From Neobacillus sp. FSL H8-0543 (GTDB taxonomy: Bacteria; Bacillota; Bacilli; Bacillales; Cytobacillaceae), in contig NZ_CP151943.1 in NCBI RefSeq assembly GCF_038592905.1, positions 4,724,501 to 4,788,500 of the forward strand: a stretch of DNA of 64,000 nt. Reading direction: 5' to 3'. Positions 1,013 through 63,486 of this stretch are shown in pieces (within the stretch, counting starts at the first letter, position 1; each line of letters begins with the position of its first letter). The position numbers and the translations under genes are program-made. Below the pieces are notes generated by a model. It was not told the DNA's origin. It made no database searches and saw only the letters and a program-made list of their open reading frames with translations.

Positions 1013-1321
1013 GTGAATAGAAAATTGAAATTTTTGAAATCAGATTGCTGTAGCCCGCTCCTAGTTGGAACGACTGAAACAGATAGGATTGCTGTTGGTT
1101 ATAACTTAGCATGTGGACAACAATCCAGTGTATTGTATGAGGCTGTTAATATGGAGCGCTTTCCAACCGTTACTGCAATAACTCGATTAAGCGGGTCAGA
1201 AAATCCTTGTATAGACTTTTCCCAACGGTTATTTTTATTATATGAATATTTAAATAGTATTGTAATTTTAAAATTTTTAATATATATTGAATATAGTTTT
1301 TATTATTACTTAGTTGTTTAA
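1013..1321 (+). CDS. Doubtful small ORF (102 aa)
   Basis: An open frame starting with GTG, without a good ribosome binding site. The first 60 residues (Cys pair DCCSP, then TTETDRIAVGYN) are of ordinary composition, but the tail is a low-complexity hydrophobic run of Ile/Leu/Tyr encoded by very AT-rich DNA. I do not recognise a family. It lies just before the S-box riboswitch and ends about 30 bp from it. It may be a gene scrap or chance; only weak support for a real protein. Confidence 0.2.
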   Translation: MNRKLKFLKSDCCSPLLVGTTETDRIAVGYNLACGQQSSVLYEAVNMERFPTVTAITRLSGSENPCIDFSQRLFLLYEYLNSIVILKFLIYIEYSFYYYLVV

Positions 1322-1353
1322 GTTGATTAATACCTGATACTACATAATGTTAA

Positions 1354-1460
1354 CCTTATCAAGAGAGGCAGAGGGAATGGCCCGATGACGCCCGGCAACC
1401 GCTATTTTTTATAGTATGGTGCCAAATCCTACAGAACGAGTAAGTTCTGAAAGATAAGGA
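1354..1460 (+). promoter_or_regulatory. SAM-I (S-box) riboswitch aptamer
   Basis: All hallmark segments of the S-box are present in order: P1 5' strand CCTTATC, the AAGAGAGGCAGAGGGA core, GGCCCGATGACGCCCGGCAACC, the GTGCCAAATCCTACAGA segment, and the closing CTGAAAGATAAGG. P1 pairs CTTATC (1355-1360) with GATAAG (1453-1458). S-box RNAs bind S-adenosylmethionine and turn the downstream operon off when SAM is plentiful. The first gene downstream is the BMP lipoprotein of a nucleoside ABC importer, 190 bp away, so that operon is predicted to be expressed when SAM is low. Confidence 0.96.
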
Positions 1461-1475
1461 AGAGTATATACATAA

Positions 1476-1510
1476 ACCCTCTTCCTATTTTCGGAAGAGG
1501 GTATTTTATT
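1476..1510 (+). terminator. Riboswitch expression platform (SAM-dependent terminator)
   Basis: 10-bp stem ACCCTCTTCC / GGAAGAGGGT (1476-1485, 1493-1502) then ATTTTATT. The 3' side of P1 runs into GGAAGAG (1458-1464), which can pair with CTCTTCC of the terminator as an antiterminator, the standard S-box OFF-switch layout. Confidence 0.92.
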
Positions 1511-1647
1511 AGGTGCGAAAAGAAAAACACGAACATTTATATAAAGTATTAAAAAAACATTCGACTTTGTATTGCTATTTTTGATTTATTTTAGTAAATT
1601 AATAGATAAATAGTAATAAAGACGAAATATATTACAGGGGGAACATC

Positions 1648-2667
1648 ATGAAAAAACTACTTTCACTTATTGTACTAGCTTTGGTAATGCTTGTCGCTGG
1701 ATGTGGAGCTGAAGAATCAACGGGGAAAGATACGTCGCCATCGAAAGAGGCTAAGAAGAAAATTGCCCTTGTCCTTCCAGAGAAAATGGGGGTAAACCCA
1801 TTCTTCCAGCAAATGGATGAAGGTGCAAAACAAGCGGCAGAAGAATTTGGAATAGAATTAAAGACAATCGAATCAACTGATCATTCTGCGATCGAAGAAA
1901 ACCTTAGGGTTGCAGTTGCAGAAGGATATGATTTAATCATTACTTCATCATTTGAATCAGAGGATGCATTAAAAAAGATAGCAACAGAAAATCCAGATCG
2001 TCAGTTTGCTATTATTGACACCGTTGTTGACCTTCCAAATGTTCAAAGTGTTAATTTCAGAGAGCATGAAGCAGCGTTCTTACTAGGAGCGGCAGCAGGT
2101 CTTTCTACGAAAACCGATAAAGTCGGTATGGTCGTGGCGATGGATATTCCACTAATGAAAAAATGGACAGTCGCGTTTGAACAAGGATTAAAGGAAACCA
2201 ATTCAAATGCAGAGTTTCTAGTAAACTATGTTGGAGGTTTTACGGATCCTGCGAAAGCGAAGGAATTAGCATTGTTACAAGCTTCTAAAGGAGCGGATTT
2301 CGTTGCAGGAGCTGCGGCAGTCGGAGACTTAGGTGTCTTTGAAGCAGCAAAAGAGCAAGGATTCTTTACTTCAGGTCAGGATGTTGACCGTACAGAGGTA
2401 GATCCAAAACATGTGGTTCTCTCACAGCTAAAAGGGACGGACGCTGCAGCCTATGAAACCGTAAAAGCATTTGCAAACAATAATTTTAAATCTGGCATTG
2501 TCGAGTATGGCTTGAAGGAAAAGGGTGTTGGCTTAACATATGTAACCCATGAAAGCAAAACTCCTCTTAACAGCTTTGTTGGACAGGAAGTAATTGACCA
2601 AGTAAAAGCTCTTTATGAAGAAATTGTATCTGGAAAAAGAGAAATCAAAAATCCATTGAGCAATTAA
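1648..2667 (+). CDS. BMP-family nucleoside-binding lipoprotein of an ABC importer
   Basis: Substrate-binding protein anchored to the outer face of the membrane. It has a lipoprotein signal peptide: a short positive start, a hydrophobic stretch and the lipobox LVAGC (Cys at about residue 19). The rest is a PnrA/BMP (Med) domain, the family that binds purine and other nucleosides, with the typical IALVLPEKMGVNPFFQ opening. Its 339 aa fit the family. The start ATG follows GGGGGAAC. It is the first gene behind the SAM-I riboswitch and is followed by a hairpin (2680-2714) that would leave it more abundant than the ATPase and permeases. Seen: lipobox and domain. Known: BMP proteins bind nucleosides. 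Inferred: the ligand is a SAM-derived nucleoside such as methylthioadenosine. Confidence 0.9.
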   Translation: MKKLLSLIVLALVMLVAGCGAEESTGKDTSPSKEAKKKIALVLPEKMGVNPFFQQMDEGAKQAAEEFGIELKTIESTDHSAIEENLRVAVAEGYDLIITSSFESEDALKKIATENPDRQFAIIDTVVDLPNVQSVNFREHEAAFLLGAAAGLSTKTDKVGMVVAMDIPLMKKWTVAFEQGLKETNSNAEFLVNYVGGFTDPAKAKELALLQASKGADFVAGAAAVGDLGVFEAAKEQGFFTSGQDVDRTEVDPKHVVLSQLKGTDAAAYETVKAFANNNFKSGIVEYGLKEKGVGLTYVTHESKTPLNSFVGQEVIDQVKALYEEIVSGKREIKNPLSN

Positions 2668-2679
2668 TCTGAAAAAAGT

Positions 2680-2714
2680 AAACCGACTGCACATTGTAGT
2701 CGGTTTCCATTTTT
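2680..2714 (+). terminator. Intra-operon attenuating hairpin
   Basis: 9-bp stem AAACCGACT / AGTCGGTTT (2680-2688, 2698-2706) followed by CCATTTTT. It sits between the binding-protein gene and the ATPase gene and probably lowers expression of the distal genes. Confidence 0.8.
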
Positions 2715-2729
2715 AAAAGGGGGAAAACG

Positions 2730-4268
2730 ATGAACTATCGGTTAGAAATGAAGGAAATGACCAAAAAGTACGGTGAGTTCTTAGCTAACGACCGGATTTC
2801 GATAAATCTGAAAAAGGGAGAGATTTTGGCGATTGTCGGAGAAAATGGTGCTGGAAAGACGACCCTCATGCGAATGCTATACGGTCTTGAACAGCCGACT
2901 TACGGAGAAATAAAACTCAGCGGTAAGACTGTAAAATTTTCAGGACCACAAGATGCAATTGAAAATGGAATCGGCATGGTGCATCAGCATTTTATGTTAT
3001 TTTCCGATTTTACCGTAACAGAAAACATTGTCATTGGTCATGAACCGAAACGAAATGGTTTCTTTAATAGAAAACTAGCAGCAGAAAAAGTGAAGGAACT
3101 GAGCGAACAGTATAAAATCCATGTAAATCCATTGAAAAAAGCAGGAGATTGCTCGATAGGAGAACAGCAGCGGATTGAAATTTTGAAAGTGTTGTATCAG
3201 GGTGCTGATATTATTATTCTTGACGAACCAACTGCGGTCTTAACTCCGATTGAGGTTGAGGAATTATTAAAAACAATTCAATTTCTAGCAGAACAAGGGA
3301 AAAGTATTATTTTAATTACGCACAAGTTGCCGGAAGTGATGAAAGTAGCAGATCAAATAACGGTGTTAAGAATTGGTCGGGTAACAGGAAATGTTTTAAA
3401 AGAAAATACTGATATCGAACAGATAGCCACCATGATGGTTGGCCGTGAGCTCCAATATCTTTCCGACCGAACCCAATTCGACGGAGAACCGCTGCTTGAG
3501 GTAGACAATCTTACTATTGGCGGGAAAGACGCGAAACCGATATTGGATCATCTTTCTTTAACCGTACACCGTGGAGAAATTGTTGGGATTGCTGGAGTAT
3601 CGGGTAACGGACAGTCAGAGCTAATTCAGGCGATCTCAGGCTTGAGAAAAATTGATAGTGGCAGTATAAGCTTAGGGGAAACAACCTTGACGGGCAAGTC
3701 CGTGGCATATAGAAGAAGTGCTGGTCTCGCCCATATTCCTGAAGACCGTTACCTATGGGGAGCAGCGAAGGAAGCTTCGGTCGAGGAAACAGGGGTGATG
3801 GGCTATTATCTAATGGAAAATTTCAATCAGTTTTCCTTTATTCGACTCAATGGATTCCGTAAGCTTATTAATGGATGGATTGATCGCTTCGAAATTAAAG
3901 CACAATCCCTAGATGAAAAATCAGGAAACCTATCTGGCGGAAACTTGCAGAAATTAATTGTGGCGCGTGAACTAGGATTTGAAACAGATTTTCTCATTGC
4001 GGCAGAACCGACCCGTGGGGTAGATATTGGCGCAATGGAATATATTCATGAAGCCATCATAAAGAAACGAAATAATGGGGACGGTATTCTCCTCGTTTCA
4101 TCGGAGTTATCGGAAATCCTGACGTTATCAGACCGAATTGCTGTTATGTATGAAGGGAAAATTGTCGATATCCTTGAACGGAAAGATGCGACGGAAGAGA
4201 GATTAAGTGTACTAATGGCAGGAGGAAACGAGAATGAATCTTCAACGAAAACTACAACAACTGCTTAA
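2730..4268 (+). CDS. Nucleoside ABC transporter, double ATPase (NupO-like)
   Basis: Cytoplasmic energising subunit with two fused ABC domains, 512 aa as usual for sugar/nucleoside importers. Domain 1 has Walker A GENGAGKTT (residues 37-45), a CSIGEQQR signature and Walker B IIILDEPT. Domain 2 (from about residue 255) has a degenerate P-loop, GVSGNGQSE, and the signature LSGGNLQK, then AAEPTRGVD; in this family one of the two sites is normally inactive. ATG start 8 bp after AAAGGGGGAA. It overlaps the following permease by 35 bp, so the two are translationally coupled. Together with the BMP lipoprotein and two permeases it forms a complete importer. Confidence 0.93.
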   Translation: MNYRLEMKEMTKKYGEFLANDRISINLKKGEILAIVGENGAGKTTLMRMLYGLEQPTYGEIKLSGKTVKFSGPQDAIENGIGMVHQHFMLFSDFTVTENIVIGHEPKRNGFFNRKLAAEKVKELSEQYKIHVNPLKKAGDCSIGEQQRIEILKVLYQGADIIILDEPTAVLTPIEVEELLKTIQFLAEQGKSIILITHKLPEVMKVADQITVLRIGRVTGNVLKENTDIEQIATMMVGRELQYLSDRTQFDGEPLLEVDNLTIGGKDAKPILDHLSLTVHRGEIVGIAGVSGNGQSELIQAISGLRKIDSGSISLGETTLTGKSVAYRRSAGLAHIPEDRYLWGAAKEASVEETGVMGYYLMENFNQFSFIRLNGFRKLINGWIDRFEIKAQSLDEKSGNLSGGNLQKLIVARELGFETDFLIAAEPTRGVDIGAMEYIHEAIIKKRNNGDGILLVSSELSEILTLSDRIAVMYEGKIVDILERKDATEERLSVLMAGGNENESSTKTTTTA

Positions 4269-5310
4269 ATCGTTGGTACAGCCTGTAACGGCCGTGTTAA
4301 TTGGACTTTTGACAGGGGCAGTTGCCATTAGTCTAGTAGGGGCATCTGTTTTGGAAACCTATAAAGTCATGTGGGACGGGGCATTCGGTAATTTTTACTT
4401 TGTTACCGCCACACTTGCTCGTGCCACTCCTATTATATTAATAGGTTTAGGATTGGTCCTTGCCTTTCGAGCAGGTGTCTTCAATATGGGAGCTGAAGGG
4501 CAAATGGTGTTAGGTGCCGTCAGTGCTGCCCTTGCTGCTTTATATGTTCCGGGGTCTGGGATCATCAAGATGCTGGCTGCATTGGCGGCTGGGTTTTTAG
4601 CTGGTGGCTTATGGTCACTCCTAGCGGGGTGGATGGAAACTAGATTCAAAGTACAATTACTGATTTCTACGTTACTCTTAAACTATGTAGCTGTATTATT
4701 TGCAGGGTATTTAGTTTCGGAGCCGTTTCAAGACAAAAGTGGATCGGCTGCATTAGCACAGACCCCCATGATTGATCAGGTTGCATGGCTGCCTAAGTTA
4801 TTCCAAGGTATGAGTGTTCATATGGGATTAGTTATTGCAATTGTTGTGGCGATTATTCTATTTATAATTCTACGATTTACATCAGCTGGGTATGAAGTAA
4901 GAATGCTAGGTTATAACCCATTTTTTGCTGAATACGGCGGGATTAATAAAACAAAGGTGCTTCTTTACAGCATGTTCTTTAGCGGCGGGATCGCCGGACT
5001 AGCTGGGACAGTTGAAGTCCTCGGATCACACTATCGATATGTGGAAGGTTCCCTGACCGTACCAGGTTATGCATGGACAGGGTTAATGGCAGCACTTTTG
5101 GCGAACTCCCATCCTCTGGGTACAGCGGTCGCGGCGATTCTGCTAGCGGCACTTCAAACCGGTGCAATGGGAATGGAGCGAAATACCGAGGTTCCGTTGG
5201 AAATCGCCAGTGTGATTCAAGGAGTTCTTATTCTTTTTGTTACAGCAAAGATCACCATTAACTGGTGGAAAATAAAGAAGAAAGCAGGTGACATCCATGG
5301 AGCTGCTTGA
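4234..5310 (+). CDS. Nucleoside ABC transporter permease 1 (NupP-like)
   Basis: Integral membrane subunit, 358 aa, with roughly eight to nine hydrophobic segments and the motif GVFNMGAEGQM (near residue 85), typical of the BPD_transp_2 family that partners BMP lipoproteins. The ATG lies inside the end of the ATPase gene behind GGAGGAAACGAG. Its stop overlaps the start region of permease 2. It would form one half of the membrane channel. Confidence 0.92.
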   Translation: MNLQRKLQQLLKSLVQPVTAVLIGLLTGAVAISLVGASVLETYKVMWDGAFGNFYFVTATLARATPIILIGLGLVLAFRAGVFNMGAEGQMVLGAVSAALAALYVPGSGIIKMLAALAAGFLAGGLWSLLAGWMETRFKVQLLISTLLLNYVAVLFAGYLVSEPFQDKSGSAALAQTPMIDQVAWLPKLFQGMSVHMGLVIAIVVAIILFIILRFTSAGYEVRMLGYNPFFAEYGGINKTKVLLYSMFFSGGIAGLAGTVEVLGSHYRYVEGSLTVPGYAWTGLMAALLANSHPLGTAVAAILLAALQTGAMGMERNTEVPLEIASVIQGVLILFVTAKITINWWKIKKKAGDIHGAA

Positions 5311-6214
5311 TCTCTCATTTTTCACGTCAGCCATCCGTATGATCAGTCCTATTCTTTTGGCTGCTCTAGGAGGAGCATTATGTGCACGCGTTGGAATCTT
5401 TAATGTTGGCCTTGAGGGTTTAATTTTAGCAGGTGCCTTTTCCGCAATCGTTGGAAATTACTTTAGCGGCAACGTGTTTGTAGCGGTTATAGTAGGTGCA
5501 CTGGGATCTATCCTTGTATCACTATTATTTGGTTTGGCATCCATTCGTTTTAAAGCAAACCCAATCGTAGCAGGTATTGCCATCAACTTTTTAGTTCTTG
5601 GTTTGACCACGTTTGGTCTTCGAGCCATTTTTGATGTGAAAGGAGCCTTTTATGATAAAAACATGGAAGGACTTCCGAAGCTGGACATCCCGGTGATTGA
5701 AGGAATTCCAGTTGTCGGGAAACTTCTATCGGGCCATTCACCACTCGTATATATCGCCTTTCTAGCAGCAATTTTGTTGTACATATTCTTTTACCGTACC
5801 GTTACAGGCTTTCGAGTTCTTGCGGTTGGGAAAAATGAAGCAGCTGCCAGAAGCCTTGGTTTAAGAGTTACTGTTTTACAATATGGAGCGATTGTGGCGT
5901 GTGGAATTCTTTGTGGTTTGGCAGGTGCGCAGCTCTCACTTGGACAGGTCACTATGTTTACAGAAGGAATGACGGCTGGAAGAGGCTTTATCGCTCTTGT
6001 GGCGATGATGTTAGGTCAATCCCACCCGATTGGCATTGTTGGATCGAGCTTATTATTCGGTCTTATGGATGCGTTGAGCATTAGACTTCAGGGCTTTTCG
6101 ATGCCAACCCAATTTACGGCGATGCTTCCTTATATTATCACCATCTTCGCGATGTTCTTCCTAAAGAATCGCGGGGCAGACTCACAGCTTTCAGGGCAGC
6201 AAAGCTCTAGGTAA
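5297..6214 (+). CDS. Nucleoside ABC transporter permease 2 (NupQ-like)
   Basis: Second channel subunit, about 305 aa, again with the family motif VGIFNVGLEGLIL near its start and multiple membrane helices. The ATG at 5297 is favoured over an upstream in-frame GTG (5288) because AGGTGA lies 6 bp in front of it. It overlaps the end of permease 1 by 14 bp. It closes the transporter part of the operon; 20 bp later the YuiH-like gene begins with its own AAGGAGGAATG site. Confidence 0.91.
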   Translation: MELLDLSFFTSAIRMISPILLAALGGALCARVGIFNVGLEGLILAGAFSAIVGNYFSGNVFVAVIVGALGSILVSLLFGLASIRFKANPIVAGIAINFLVLGLTTFGLRAIFDVKGAFYDKNMEGLPKLDIPVIEGIPVVGKLLSGHSPLVYIAFLAAILLYIFFYRTVTGFRVLAVGKNEAAARSLGLRVTVLQYGAIVACGILCGLAGAQLSLGQVTMFTEGMTAGRGFIALVAMMLGQSHPIGIVGSSLLFGLMDALSIRLQGFSMPTQFTAMLPYIITIFAMFFLKNRGADSQLSGQQSSR

Positions 6215-6234
6215 CTACAAGGAGGAATGAAAGT

Positions 6235-6897
6235 ATGAATAAAGCAGAAAGAATTAAACGAACGAGAGTTCCGGCAGTTGATCCTAAGAGTACAAAACGT
6301 CTTCCGCCTGGTCAGGCATTAACAGAACGTTTCCCGATCCTACATGAAGGAGACGTGCCCGTTTATGATCTGGAAAAATGGGATTTAAAAGTGTTCGGAG
6401 AAATCGACAAAGAGGTGGTTCTCTCTTATGGTCAAATCAAACAAATGCCACAGACGACCATCACCGTGGACATCCACTGTGTAACGCGCTGGTCTCGTTT
6501 TGACAATGGCTTTACCGGTGTAAGATTCGGTGATTTCCTTAAGGAAATTGGTGTGACTCCTAAAAGCAAGTATGTAATGCTGCATGCGGATCATGATTAT
6601 ACAGCCAATATTCCTTTGAAGGATCTGCTTCAAGAAGATGTTCTTCTAGCACATTCGTTTGAAGGAGAGCCGTTAACAGAAAAGCATGGCTGGCCGCTAA
6701 GGCTGGTCGTACCGCATCTTTATTTTTGGAAAAGTGTAAAATGGATCCGCGGAATTGAATTTATTGATGAAAACAAGCCAGGGTTCTGGGAGCAAAACGG
6801 ATTTCATATTAATGGTGATCCGTTTAAAGAAGAAAGGTTCTCAGGAGATGACCTGCCAATACCAGAAGATGAATGGGAGCGAAAAGACTTTGACTAA
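6235..6897 (+). CDS. YuiH-like sulfite-oxidase-family molybdopterin oxidoreductase
   Basis: 220-aa protein of the sulfite oxidase/MsrP (YedY) fold with the molybdenum-ligand Cys in DIHCVTRWSRFDN (about residue 82), as in B. subtilis YuiH. No signal peptide is seen, so it is probably cytoplasmic. The family reduces S- or N-oxides or oxidises sulfite; the substrate here is unknown. It lies between a nucleoside importer and a nucleoside phosphorylase under a SAM riboswitch, an unusual place. A role on a sulfoxide or other sulfur compound linked to methionine salvage is an inference from that context only. Its last codons overlap the start of the next gene. Confidence 0.85.
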   Translation: MNKAERIKRTRVPAVDPKSTKRLPPGQALTERFPILHEGDVPVYDLEKWDLKVFGEIDKEVVLSYGQIKQMPQTTITVDIHCVTRWSRFDNGFTGVRFGDFLKEIGVTPKSKYVMLHADHDYTANIPLKDLLQEDVLLAHSFEGEPLTEKHGWPLRLVVPHLYFWKSVKWIRGIEFIDENKPGFWEQNGFHINGDPFKEERFSGDDLPIPEDEWERKDFD

Positions 6898-7618
6898 ACA
6901 ATTGCCAAATTTAAAAGTAGCATCAGATATACTGCCAGATCGTGTTCTAGTATGCGGGGATCCGAGTCGGGCGAAAATGATCGCCGATTTACTAGATAAT
7001 CCAGTTCAACTAGCCCAAAATCGCGAGTACCATACTTATAGCGGAAGCTGGAATGGGAAACAGGTTGCGGTAGTCAGCCATGGTGTGGGAGCACCTGGGG
7101 CAGCGGTATGTTTTGAAGAACTTATTATGGGTGGCGTACAGTTCATCATTCGAGTAGGAACAGCAGGATCTTATCAAAAAGAGATTAAACCGGGAAGTCT
7201 TGTGGTAAGCACCGCTGCAGTAAGCTGTGATGGATTAACGAAACAAATTGTCCCTCATGGATTCCCTGCAGTTGCAGACCGTAAAGTTGTTGAGGCATTA
7301 ACCAATGCAGCAGTTCTTACTGAAGAAAACATTCCTGTAAAAGAGGGGATCACCCTTACACTCGATGCCTTTTATTCTGGGGTTCTCGAATTTCCACATC
7401 AGCTTTATAAAAAGGCTGGAGTTGTTGCAGTAGACATGGAAAACTCGGCTTTATTCGTTATAGCTAGTATAAAAGGGGTACAAGCTGGAGCGATTCTAGC
7501 CATTGATGGCTATGCGGATGCAGAGCTTCGTGAGGAATACAATCCACACAATGACTTGGTTTCACATGCGGTGGAAGCAGAAATGCAAATAGCCCTGGAT
7601 GCTATTACAGCATTATAA
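6890..7618 (+). CDS. Nucleoside phosphorylase (uridine phosphorylase/MTA-type, NP-I family)
   Basis: Cleaves nucleosides with phosphate to give the free base and ribose-1-phosphate. PNP_UDP (NP-I) family: phosphate-site motif VCGDPSRAKMI near the start, VGTAGS in the middle (RVGTAGSYQ), and the late VDMENSALF, the ribose-contacting Met-Glu motif. I chose TTG 6890 (242 aa) because GGGAG precedes it by about 9 bp and the length then matches the family; ATG 6869 is an alternative. It overlaps the end of the YuiH-like gene. The protein would process the nucleoside brought in by the upstream transporter. The motif set is nearest to uridine phosphorylases, but under a SAM riboswitch methylthioadenosine is a plausible substrate. 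Confidence 0.9.
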   Translation: MTKQLPNLKVASDILPDRVLVCGDPSRAKMIADLLDNPVQLAQNREYHTYSGSWNGKQVAVVSHGVGAPGAAVCFEELIMGGVQFIIRVGTAGSYQKEIKPGSLVVSTAAVSCDGLTKQIVPHGFPAVADRKVVEALTNAAVLTEENIPVKEGITLTLDAFYSGVLEFPHQLYKKAGVVAVDMENSALFVIASIKGVQAGAILAIDGYADAELREEYNPHNDLVSHAVEAEMQIALDAITAL

Positions 7619-62140: not shown

Positions 62141-62237
62141 GGGGTTGAATGGGGTACTGGTGTCCTCCACGGTCTTCAAAACTGCTTGAGACCTGCGTGC
62201 CAGGTCTGGTGGGTTCGATTCCCACACAGTCCCGCCA
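62141..62237 (+). tRNA. selC: tRNA-Sec (anticodon UCA)
   Basis: 97 nt with encoded CCA and G as discriminator base. Anticodon loop CTTCAAA (62174-62180) gives UCA, reading UGA. Hallmarks: a long variable arm (AGACCTG / CAGGTCT, 62189-62195 and 62201-62207, 7 bp), a D-arm with a 4-nt loop TGGT, T-arm GTGGG-TTCGATT-CCCAC, and an extended acceptor (GGGGTTG / CAGTCCC plus one mismatch). The lower anticodon stem has two mismatches and the D-stem one bulge, so it may be somewhat degenerate. A phage-type integrase lies at its 3' end, which fits use as an integration site. Confidence 0.75.
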
Positions 62238-62356: not shown

Positions 62357-63486
62357 TTATTTAAGTAGGGTGTCTAAGGTATCTACCGCAATTCCTTCAA
62401 TCGAATCTGTTAGATGGGAATAGGTGTCCATGGTCACGGAGATTTTGGAATGTCCCAGACGGGCGCTGACGATTTTAGGATGAACATTGGCTTTCAGTAA
62501 GATCGTTGCATGTGAGTGGCGCAAATCATGAAAGCGAATATCTGGTAGATTAGCTGCCTTGATCGCTCTTTTTAAGGCTCTTGAGATTTCTGAAGGGGCC
62601 ATGATGTTCCCTTTAGAGTTGCAAAAGACGAGATTATGAGGATTGAAGGCATCACCAAGTAATCGTTTTTGCTTCTCATGTTCCTCTTTGAGTGATTCTA
62701 GTAGCTTTGCGAGCTCTGCCGTTAGCCTTACCCCTCTAGGTCTTTCATTCTTTGGAAGTGTATTGAAAAAATATTGTCCATTTGCTTCTGTAATCGTTTG
62801 TCGAATATAGAGCCTTCGCGTGTGAAAGTCGACGTTCTTCCAGGAGAGCCCAATTAACTCACTTTTCCTCATGCCTGTATGAGCTGCAGCGTACATAATC
62901 GGATAAAACACAGGTGTTCTTTCTTTTGCCGTTTTAAGCAGGAAATTAAGCTGTTCGACAGAGTAGGTGTTCATTTCCCTTTTGGTTGGCTTTGGAGGTT
63001 TGGCTCCTTTGGCGACATTTTTCTCGATGAACTCCCAGTCAATGCCGTCATTCAAGGCTTTAGAGAGCACTCGATGGTGATGAGTAACCGATTGGGCTGA
63101 TTACACATTCAATTTCTCTTTGTAATAGTTTTGTAAGTGGGTGCTTTTTAATTCATGGAGCGCTATGTGCCCCAGCGACGGTTGAAGATGAGTTTTAACG
63201 ATCTTCTCATACTCGGCATATGTCTTTGGCTTCGTATTCGTCTTTGCATAATTCTCAAGCCAATACGTTAGGTACTCACCAACTGAAATCTCGGTATTTT
63301 TTGTTTTATTTTTGCTACTATCTAACTCAAGTGATGCATTTTCCATCGCTATTTTCGCTTCTTTTTTTGTGTTGAAGCCGGAACGTTTTATTCGGGTAGT
63401 TTTCCGTTGAGATTTTTACCTGCTTCTAGCACAAAGAGCCACTTACCTGTATTCTGATCCTTTTTTGGATAACCAGTGCCAGCCAT
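62357..63486 (-). pseudogene. Phage/ICE tyrosine integrase with a frameshift and an in-frame TAA
   Basis: Intact parts: MAGTGYPKKDQNTGKWLFVL (AP2-like start, ATG 63484-63486 after GGAGGTAAAATA), GFNTKKEAKIAMENASLELD, core-binding EYLTYWLENYAKTNTKPKTY, and catalytic AAHTGMRKSELIGLSW (Arg), FHDLRHSHATILL (HxxR), RLGHSKISVTMDTYSH (His and nucleophile Tyr). Lesions: one-base frameshift near 63395 and TAA at 63101-63103 after YYKEKLNV. Full length about 376 aa. It converges on tRNA-Sec, as integrases of elements inserted in tRNA 3' ends usually do. Confidence 0.92.

Follow-up and report, generated by a model that had tools for sequence, protein, structure and literature searches.

A nucleoside importer operon behind a SAM riboswitch and a PurR-type operator in Neobacillus: a candidate for methylthioadenosine salvage

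Neobacillus sp. FSL H8-0543 carries a six-gene operon in which a nucleoside importer, a molybdoenzyme and a nucleoside phosphorylase (NP) follow an S-adenosylmethionine (SAM) riboswitch, or S-box, and a PurR-type operator. We analysed this operon within a window of 64,000 nucleotides (positions 4724501-4788500 of the 5.3 Mb single-contig genome) and in related genomes. With moderate confidence, we propose that it salvages an extracellular SAM-derived, sulfur-bearing purine nucleoside, most likely 5'-methylthioadenosine (MTA) or a close analogue. By computation we observed the gene content and order, the S-box, a PurBox-spaced inverted repeat, a promoter-like sequence behind this repeat, and the co-occurrence of NP with the methionine salvage gene mtnW. 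From these we infer the substrate and its products, the action of two candidate promoters (P1 and P2) and of PurR, and the role of the molybdoenzyme.

The cassette is a concrete, testable MTA importer candidate in easily grown soil bacteria; a named bacterial MTA importer was not found in our searches of the open-licence literature. One operon would answer to two nutrient signals, each matching one half of the proposed substrate, and an uncharacterised molybdoenzyme group would be placed in a defined metabolic context. The parts are of known kinds; SAM riboswitch, PurR operator, nucleoside importer, molybdoenzyme and altered phosphorylase were not found together in the open-licence literature, an earlier mention in S-box surveys being possible.

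A conserved operon behind an S-box

Scanning a genome collection with the BMP-type binding protein of the operon gave 51 homologous loci from Bacillaceae, Brevibacillus, Paenibacillus and relatives. The same six-gene order (Table 1) is kept in 48 of them; of the exceptions, two (L020 and L057) reach contig edges and one (L059) has NP without the molybdoenzyme gene. Open reading frame families flanking the six genes were common to at most 12 of the 51 loci. An earlier sequence-only reading of the window had recognised the genes of a BMP-type importer and, in the same direction, a nucleoside phosphorylase gene, and all of these genes indeed lie on the forward strand between 1648 and 7618. Its gene list overlooked the molybdopterin oxidoreductase gene (hereafter MOLY) in the interval between permease 2 and NP. 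NP overlaps MOLY by 29 bases, provided that it starts at the ATG at 6869; our NP analyses ran on 6872-7615, that is, with this first ATG excluded.

The same reading had described a complete S-box with terminator and antiterminator, which we can corroborate. The aptamer scores far above the RF00162 gathering cut-off (44.4 bits) and covers model positions 1-108 of 108. The leader fold contained both aptamer and terminator (z -5.1, better than each of 200 shuffles). When the 5' arm of the aptamer's P1 helix was left out of the fold, its 3' arm, GGAAGAG, paired with the CCTCTTCC arm of the terminator as an antiterminator. That is, the leader has the expression platform of a SAM-I riboswitch, a terminator with a competing antiterminator.

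For the homologous loci, we built a search model from eight S-boxes of the Neobacillus genome (E <= 1, the E-values being rough). Relatives had been suggested as a place to look for further operons joining an S-box to a BMP gene, and there we found them: 32 of the 51 loci have an S-box immediately ahead of the BMP gene, and none was found elsewhere in the loci. These 32 include loci from Neobacillus, Mesobacillus, Metabacillus, Peribacillus and Brevibacillus. Because it recurs at the homologous gene in so many other genomes, the arrangement in the window is not a chance one. Rfam agreed with our model in all eight loci used as a cross-check, with the same S-box in five and no S-box in three, and eight further loci without an S-box held no RNA family at the Rfam gathering threshold. 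L034 was counted as lacking an S-box, but its contig is cut and leaves 175 bases upstream only. With the window included, a terminator follows 33/33 S-boxes, and an antiterminator complement was detectable in 30/33. Within 110 nt upstream, 24/33 S-box operons have a candidate promoter scoring at least 9. In the window, P1 was picked by consensus alone, in a region with no excess of promoter-like sites (17 versus a shuffle mean of 15.4).

Table 1. Features of the operon and its leader (window coordinates)
Feature	Position	Strand	Evidence
Candidate upstream promoter P1 (TTGTAA-17-TATATT)	1260-1288	+	9/12 consensus matches
S-box (SAM-I) riboswitch aptamer	1353-1460	+	RF00162, 101.7 bits, E 1.6e-23
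Intrinsic terminator of the riboswitch	1476-1502	+	stem prediction, leader folding
PurR-type operator, two inverted 14-bp PurBoxes, 16-bp spacer	1525-1568	.	core CGAA-N26-TTCG at 1530-1563
Candidate second promoter P2 (TTGCTA-17-TAAATT)	1572-1600	+	8/12 consensus matches
BMP/PnrA-type substrate-binding lipoprotein	1648-2667	+	PF02608, 196.2 bits (cut-off 24.1)
ATP-binding cassette (ABC) ATPase, two nucleotide-binding domains	2730-4268	+	PF00005, two stretches
Permease 1	4234-5310	+	PF02653 (BPD_transp_2), 139.6 bits
Permease 2	5297-6214	+	PF02653 (BPD_transp_2), 137.2 bits
MOLY, single-domain molybdopterin oxidoreductase, sulfite-oxidase fold	6235-6897	+	PF00174, 152.8 bits
NP, nucleoside phosphorylase (PNP_UDP_1)	6869-7618	+	PF01048, 138.5 bits

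A PurR-type operator and a second candidate promoter

Loci without an S-box still have an inverted repeat of the form CGAA-N26-TTCG in common. An excerpt of PMC8789054 describes the PurBoxes of B. subtilis as inverted 14-bp CGAA/TTCG boxes with a 16-17 bp spacer near a promoter, and the window has just such a pair of CGAA-centred boxes beside a candidate promoter. We compared spacings in 52 upstream regions (the window and the 51 loci, up to 300 bases each). The exact repeat with a gap of 26 occurred in 19 of them, and of the remaining gaps between 14 and 41, four (19, 27, 40 and 41) occurred once and the rest never. With one mismatch allowed, the gap of 26 was found in 35/52 regions versus 1-14 at other gaps, the highest at 32-34. 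PurBoxes with at most one mismatch were present in 38/52 upstream regions (L053 being doubtful).

A strict pattern scan of the Neobacillus genome gave six sites, and the reversed control none. Two of them belong to the window operon and to the purE operon (TIGR01162, 231 bits, over cut-off), and two lie at PF00860 nucleobase permease genes. The fifth separates the gene of a PbuX-like permease (378.9 bits, below the cut-off of 414.15) from a divergent Rieske oxygenase gene; the sixth is intragenic with a different spacing. As a separate observation, an exact CGAA-N26-TTCG lies upstream of L088, another BMP gene of this genome (near 4972844) with the usual SFN motif.

The elements of P2 (TTGCTA at 1572-1577 and TAAATT at 1595-1600) stand directly behind the PurBoxes and downstream of the riboswitch terminator. 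This placement recurs: the -35 element of the best promoter candidate begins 8-9 nt past TTCG in 28/38 PurBox operons (scores 6-9 of 12). Candidates scoring at least 8 with the -35 element within 20 nt were found in 24/38 PurBox operons versus 6.3% of mononucleotide shuffles, the loci being related and not independent. In its inverted CGAA/TTCG boxes, its 16-bp spacer and its position just upstream of a -35 element, the arrangement resembles the B. subtilis PurR regulon as excerpted from PMC8789054; it differs in that the operator lies behind the terminator of a SAM riboswitch and ahead of a candidate second promoter.

Since operator and candidate P2 are downstream of the terminator, the riboswitch would govern upstream transcripts only and thus probably does not control all transcripts of the operon. 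The sequence-only reading, which had the riboswitch controlling the operon, is correct in that it can do so; what it overlooked is the operator and candidate promoter past the terminator (1525-1600). With SAM in ample supply, transcripts from P1 would end at the terminator of the S-box. Those from P2, starting past the terminator, would be repressed by PurR at the PurBoxes until phosphoribosyl pyrophosphate (PRPP) signals purine demand. As judged from these elements, the operon seems to respond to a lack of SAM or to purine/PRPP signals. Two parallel promoters in an OR arrangement are the simplest reading; if PurR also served as a roadblock for transcription from P1, control would be AND-like.

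Sorting the 52 operons by the two elements gave 28 with both, five with the S-box only (L037, whose repeat is degenerate, L041, L047, L048 and L049), ten with PurBoxes only (L017, L019, L021, L023, L027, L030, L031, L043, L034 with its cut contig and the doubtful L053) and nine with neither (L046, L050-L052, L054-L057 and L059). It is conceivable that the riboswitch is functionally minor, with expression mostly from the PurR promoter P2 and a slight SAM effect, which would fit either an ordinary or a SAM-derived substrate. PurBoxes and a P2 candidate do lie behind the terminator in operons with both elements, and several lineages have no detected S-box. We nevertheless hold this to be improbable: the retained terminators and antiterminators, together with the five S-box-only operons, point to selection on the S-box. 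The Paenibacillus operons L050-L054, with no S-box and no clear PurBoxes, have another conserved upstream stretch in common, which in L053 carries TTGACA-18-TAGGAT.

Methionine salvage and the proposed imported nucleoside

The Neobacillus genome holds ten RF00162 matches, nine of them over cut-off. The genes and clusters behind its S-boxes include metK (TIGR01034 over cut-off), homoserine dehydrogenase, a cluster for methionine biosynthesis and a MetN-like importer (below its cut-off). They also include mtnK (TIGR01767, 523.2 bits) and a cluster in which mtnW (TIGR03332, 660.6 bits) is joined by mtnB (TIGR03328 over cut-off). In its aptamer, terminator and antiterminator, and in sharing the genome with S-boxes at methionine genes, the operon leader resembles the Bacillales S-box regulon, but it stands ahead of genes for a nucleoside importer, a molybdoenzyme and a phosphorylase. 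Two other S-boxes were noted beside these: one (L064, 3369838-3378000 of the genome) ahead of a ribose-type ABC importer of binding protein, ATPase and permease, a candidate methylthioribose importer, and a weak one (L068, 4961551-4969500; 33.5 bits, below cut-off) ahead of an M20-type amidohydrolase (TIGR01891 over cut-off).

Among 193 genomes of the family, NP was found in 22 (E <= 1e-60) and mtnW over cut-off in 102. All 22 NP genomes have mtnW, versus 80/171 without NP (Fisher p 2.6e-7, kinship ignored); in the own genus the figures are 10/10 versus 23/51 (p 0.0012). The gene moaA is nearly universal and thus uninformative here. These data fit a pathway in which the BMP lipoprotein would bind the nucleoside, the ABC complex would bring it in, and NP would split MTA into adenine and methylthioribose-1-phosphate. 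Of these, adenine would join the purine pool; methylthioribose-1-phosphate would enter the genome's mtn methionine salvage pathway.

We then asked what the phosphorylase itself reveals. The alignment of NP had 170 rows, 50 from the window and loci and 120 listed from 1065 matches, with some duplicates. NP combines the PF01048 domain with a catalytic Asp at N7 (Asp212, 170/170 rows), as in the hexameric purine nucleoside phosphorylase (PNP) / MTA phosphorylase superfamily. The conserved His of this superfamily that contacts the 5' end of the sugar is missing: position 13 is Asn in 155 of these rows, Ile in 12, Val in one, a gap in two and His in none, while His occupies the equivalent position in the genome's two DeoD proteins, its Udp-like paralogue and the Plasmodium PNP (PfPNP). 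The latter, a dual inosine/5'-methylthioinosine phosphorylase, gives the best PDB sequence matches of NP (E 6.6e-40). NP keeps the equivalents of its Val66, Val73, Met183 and Asp206 (Val72, Val79, Met189 and Asp212) and differs by Asn for His7 and Phe for Tyr160. As excerpted from PMC3885546, His7 of PfPNP lies 3 A from the 5'-hydroxyl (5'-OH) of a bound inhibitor, and the kcat/Km ratio of inosine to methylthioinosine falls from 1.6 to 0.1 in His7Ser and 0.3 in His7Phe (Table 1 of that paper). An excerpt of PMC3434127 has His4* of B. subtilis PNP binding the sugar hydroxyls of 2-fluoroadenosine. Judged by its aligned residues, the evidence from NP is mixed, but at the 5' end the enzyme is unlike ordinary PNPs. 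Neither uridine phosphorylase, as some sources name it (TIGR01718, 164.6 versus a cut-off of 280.3 bits), nor DeoD-type PNP (TIGR00107, 100.7 versus 232.25 bits) was an acceptable assignment.

The binding protein has a lipobox-like VAGC with Cys19 in its translation. Reference residues of BmpA and BmpD, as given in excerpts of PMC7093131 and PMC13325309, were mapped onto it by alignment. It has the features of BMP/PnrA nucleoside binders: besides its PF02608 match, the stacking Phe pair (F52 and F198) and the ribose contacts D124, D245 and K262 are kept in 52/52 BMP proteins. In domain set and in these residues it is like the importers BmpA, BmpD and TmpC. B. subtilis NupNOPQ is likewise a BMP/PnrA nucleoside importer. 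The base contacts Asp19 and Asn28 of BmpD are replaced by Pro44 and Phe53 in all 52 proteins, while two other BMP proteins of the genome (L086 and L088) have the usual SFN motif. By its aligned residues the binding site is that of a nucleoside binder whose base contacts are altered, and these residues do not name the nucleoside.

Several observations weigh against MTA as the substrate. The binding protein retains the ribose contacts of ordinary nucleoside binders. There is no detected S-box in 19/52 operons, Paenibacillus loci among them. The mtnW statistics take no account of shared ancestry, and urease, a control of middling frequency, was also mildly enriched (14/22 versus 62/171, p 0.019), so part of the mtnW signal may be ancestry or genome size. 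The genome further encodes an MTA/S-adenosylhomocysteine (SAH) nucleosidase (TIGR01704, 358.9 versus a cut-off of 73.8 bits) and a trimeric MTA phosphorylase-like protein below cut-off (214.6 versus 274.85), so that NP is not needed for internal MTA. In NP itself, Phe167 stands in 170/170 rows at the place of PfPNP Tyr160, which favours methylthio substrates; the excerpt of PMC3885546 gives Tyr160Phe as at least tenfold less efficient on methylthioinosine, and its Table 1 lists a ratio of 2.2 for His7Ala, a preference unchanged. In the adenosine complex of B. subtilis PNP, as excerpted from PMC3434127, the 5'-OH is held by Arg43* and not by His4*. Asn, a replacement absent from the excerpted portion of the PfPNP table, could itself bind the 5'-OH.

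A rival explanation is ordinary purine nucleoside scavenging (adenosine, inosine or guanosine) within the PurR regulon, the S-box having been added because SAM shortage also means adenine-nucleotide or one-carbon demand, or recruited by chance in some lineages. PurBoxes are found in more upstream regions than the S-box (38/52, with the one doubtful case, versus 33/52), PurBox sites elsewhere in the genome lie at ordinary purine genes, the ribose contacts are invariant, and NP has a purine-type catalytic Asp next to the unfavourable Phe. We give this explanation some weight and still think it unlikely. It leaves unexplained the presence of mtnW in every NP genome, the lost 5'-OH His, the five S-box-only operons and the molybdoenzyme, and the replaced BmpD-type base contacts stand against it, given the SFN motif of the two other BMP proteins.

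Salvage of a SAM by-product, as the sequence-only reading had proposed, remains the best-supported reading of the sequences, resting on the S-box in 32/51 loci, the mtnW association and the missing His. Within it, MTA fits the link to mtnW; SAH and 5'-deoxyadenosine, which had been offered alongside it, do not predict that link. Both are SAM by-products and purine nucleosides without a free 5'-OH, 5'-deoxyadenosine arising from radical-SAM reactions, and either would be consistent with the S-box, the PurBoxes and the missing His. Their phosphorolysis products do not enter the mtnW pathway, which accompanies NP in 22/22 genomes, and Val72 and Val79 of NP fit a small methylthio pocket that would be small for homocysteine. 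We therefore consider either nucleoside very improbable as the substrate in place of MTA.

The molybdoenzyme and neighbouring features

MOLY passes the PF00174 domain cut-off and has the sulfite-oxidase-type fold of the molybdenum cofactor (Moco) domain. It is the sole PF00174 protein found in the Neobacillus genome. Among 101 genomes of the family, NP (E <= 1e-40) occurred in 12, all of them with a directly adjacent MOLY of at least 73% identity, and a close MOLY (at least 64% identity) in 13. Distant PF00174 proteins (38-55%), presumably YuiH-like, are present in many of the genomes without NP. In this sample, an identity gap thus parts the close relatives of MOLY (64-88%) from the other PF00174 proteins, as measured by identities and not by a tree. 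MOLY shares the Moco-domain fold and a conserved Cys with MsrP/YedY and sulfite oxidases, but it is a single domain of 220 residues, shows no export signal by eye and falls below the NCBIfam cut-offs. Assignment as the methionine sulfoxide reductase MsrP was rejected (NF003767, 59.7 versus a cut-off of 207 bits), as was assignment as SoxC or SorA (far below their cut-offs).

In the proposed MTA pathway, MOLY would act on the same substrate in an accessory role, perhaps by repairing an oxidised sulfur. A rather unlikely but specific version is that the compound taken up is MTA sulfoxide, or another nucleoside S-oxide of this sort, arising extracellularly; MOLY, in the cytoplasm, would reduce the sulfoxide, and the adapted NP would release adenine and methylthioribose-1-phosphate. 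MTA sulfoxide has been measured in human cell culture supernatants, according to an excerpt of PMC2219991. If true, a SAM riboswitch and PurR would together control a nucleoside sulfoxide reductase pathway.

Further features were noted in and around the loci. In Halalkalibacter, the cassette is followed by a second BMP gene (44% identity; L056:14312-15298). A purine riboswitch of Brevibacillus centrosporus (RF00167, 74.6 bits; L025:3025-3124) is situated some 5 kb ahead of the BMP gene. In the window, a short open reading frame (1013-1321, +) with no Pfam or NCBIfam match at the thresholds used adjoins the leader upstream. At the other end of the window, a selenocysteine tRNA (62141-62237, +; Rfam 59.7 bits, ARAGORN anticodon tca) is adjoined by a tyrosine recombinase-like gene (62357-63070, -).

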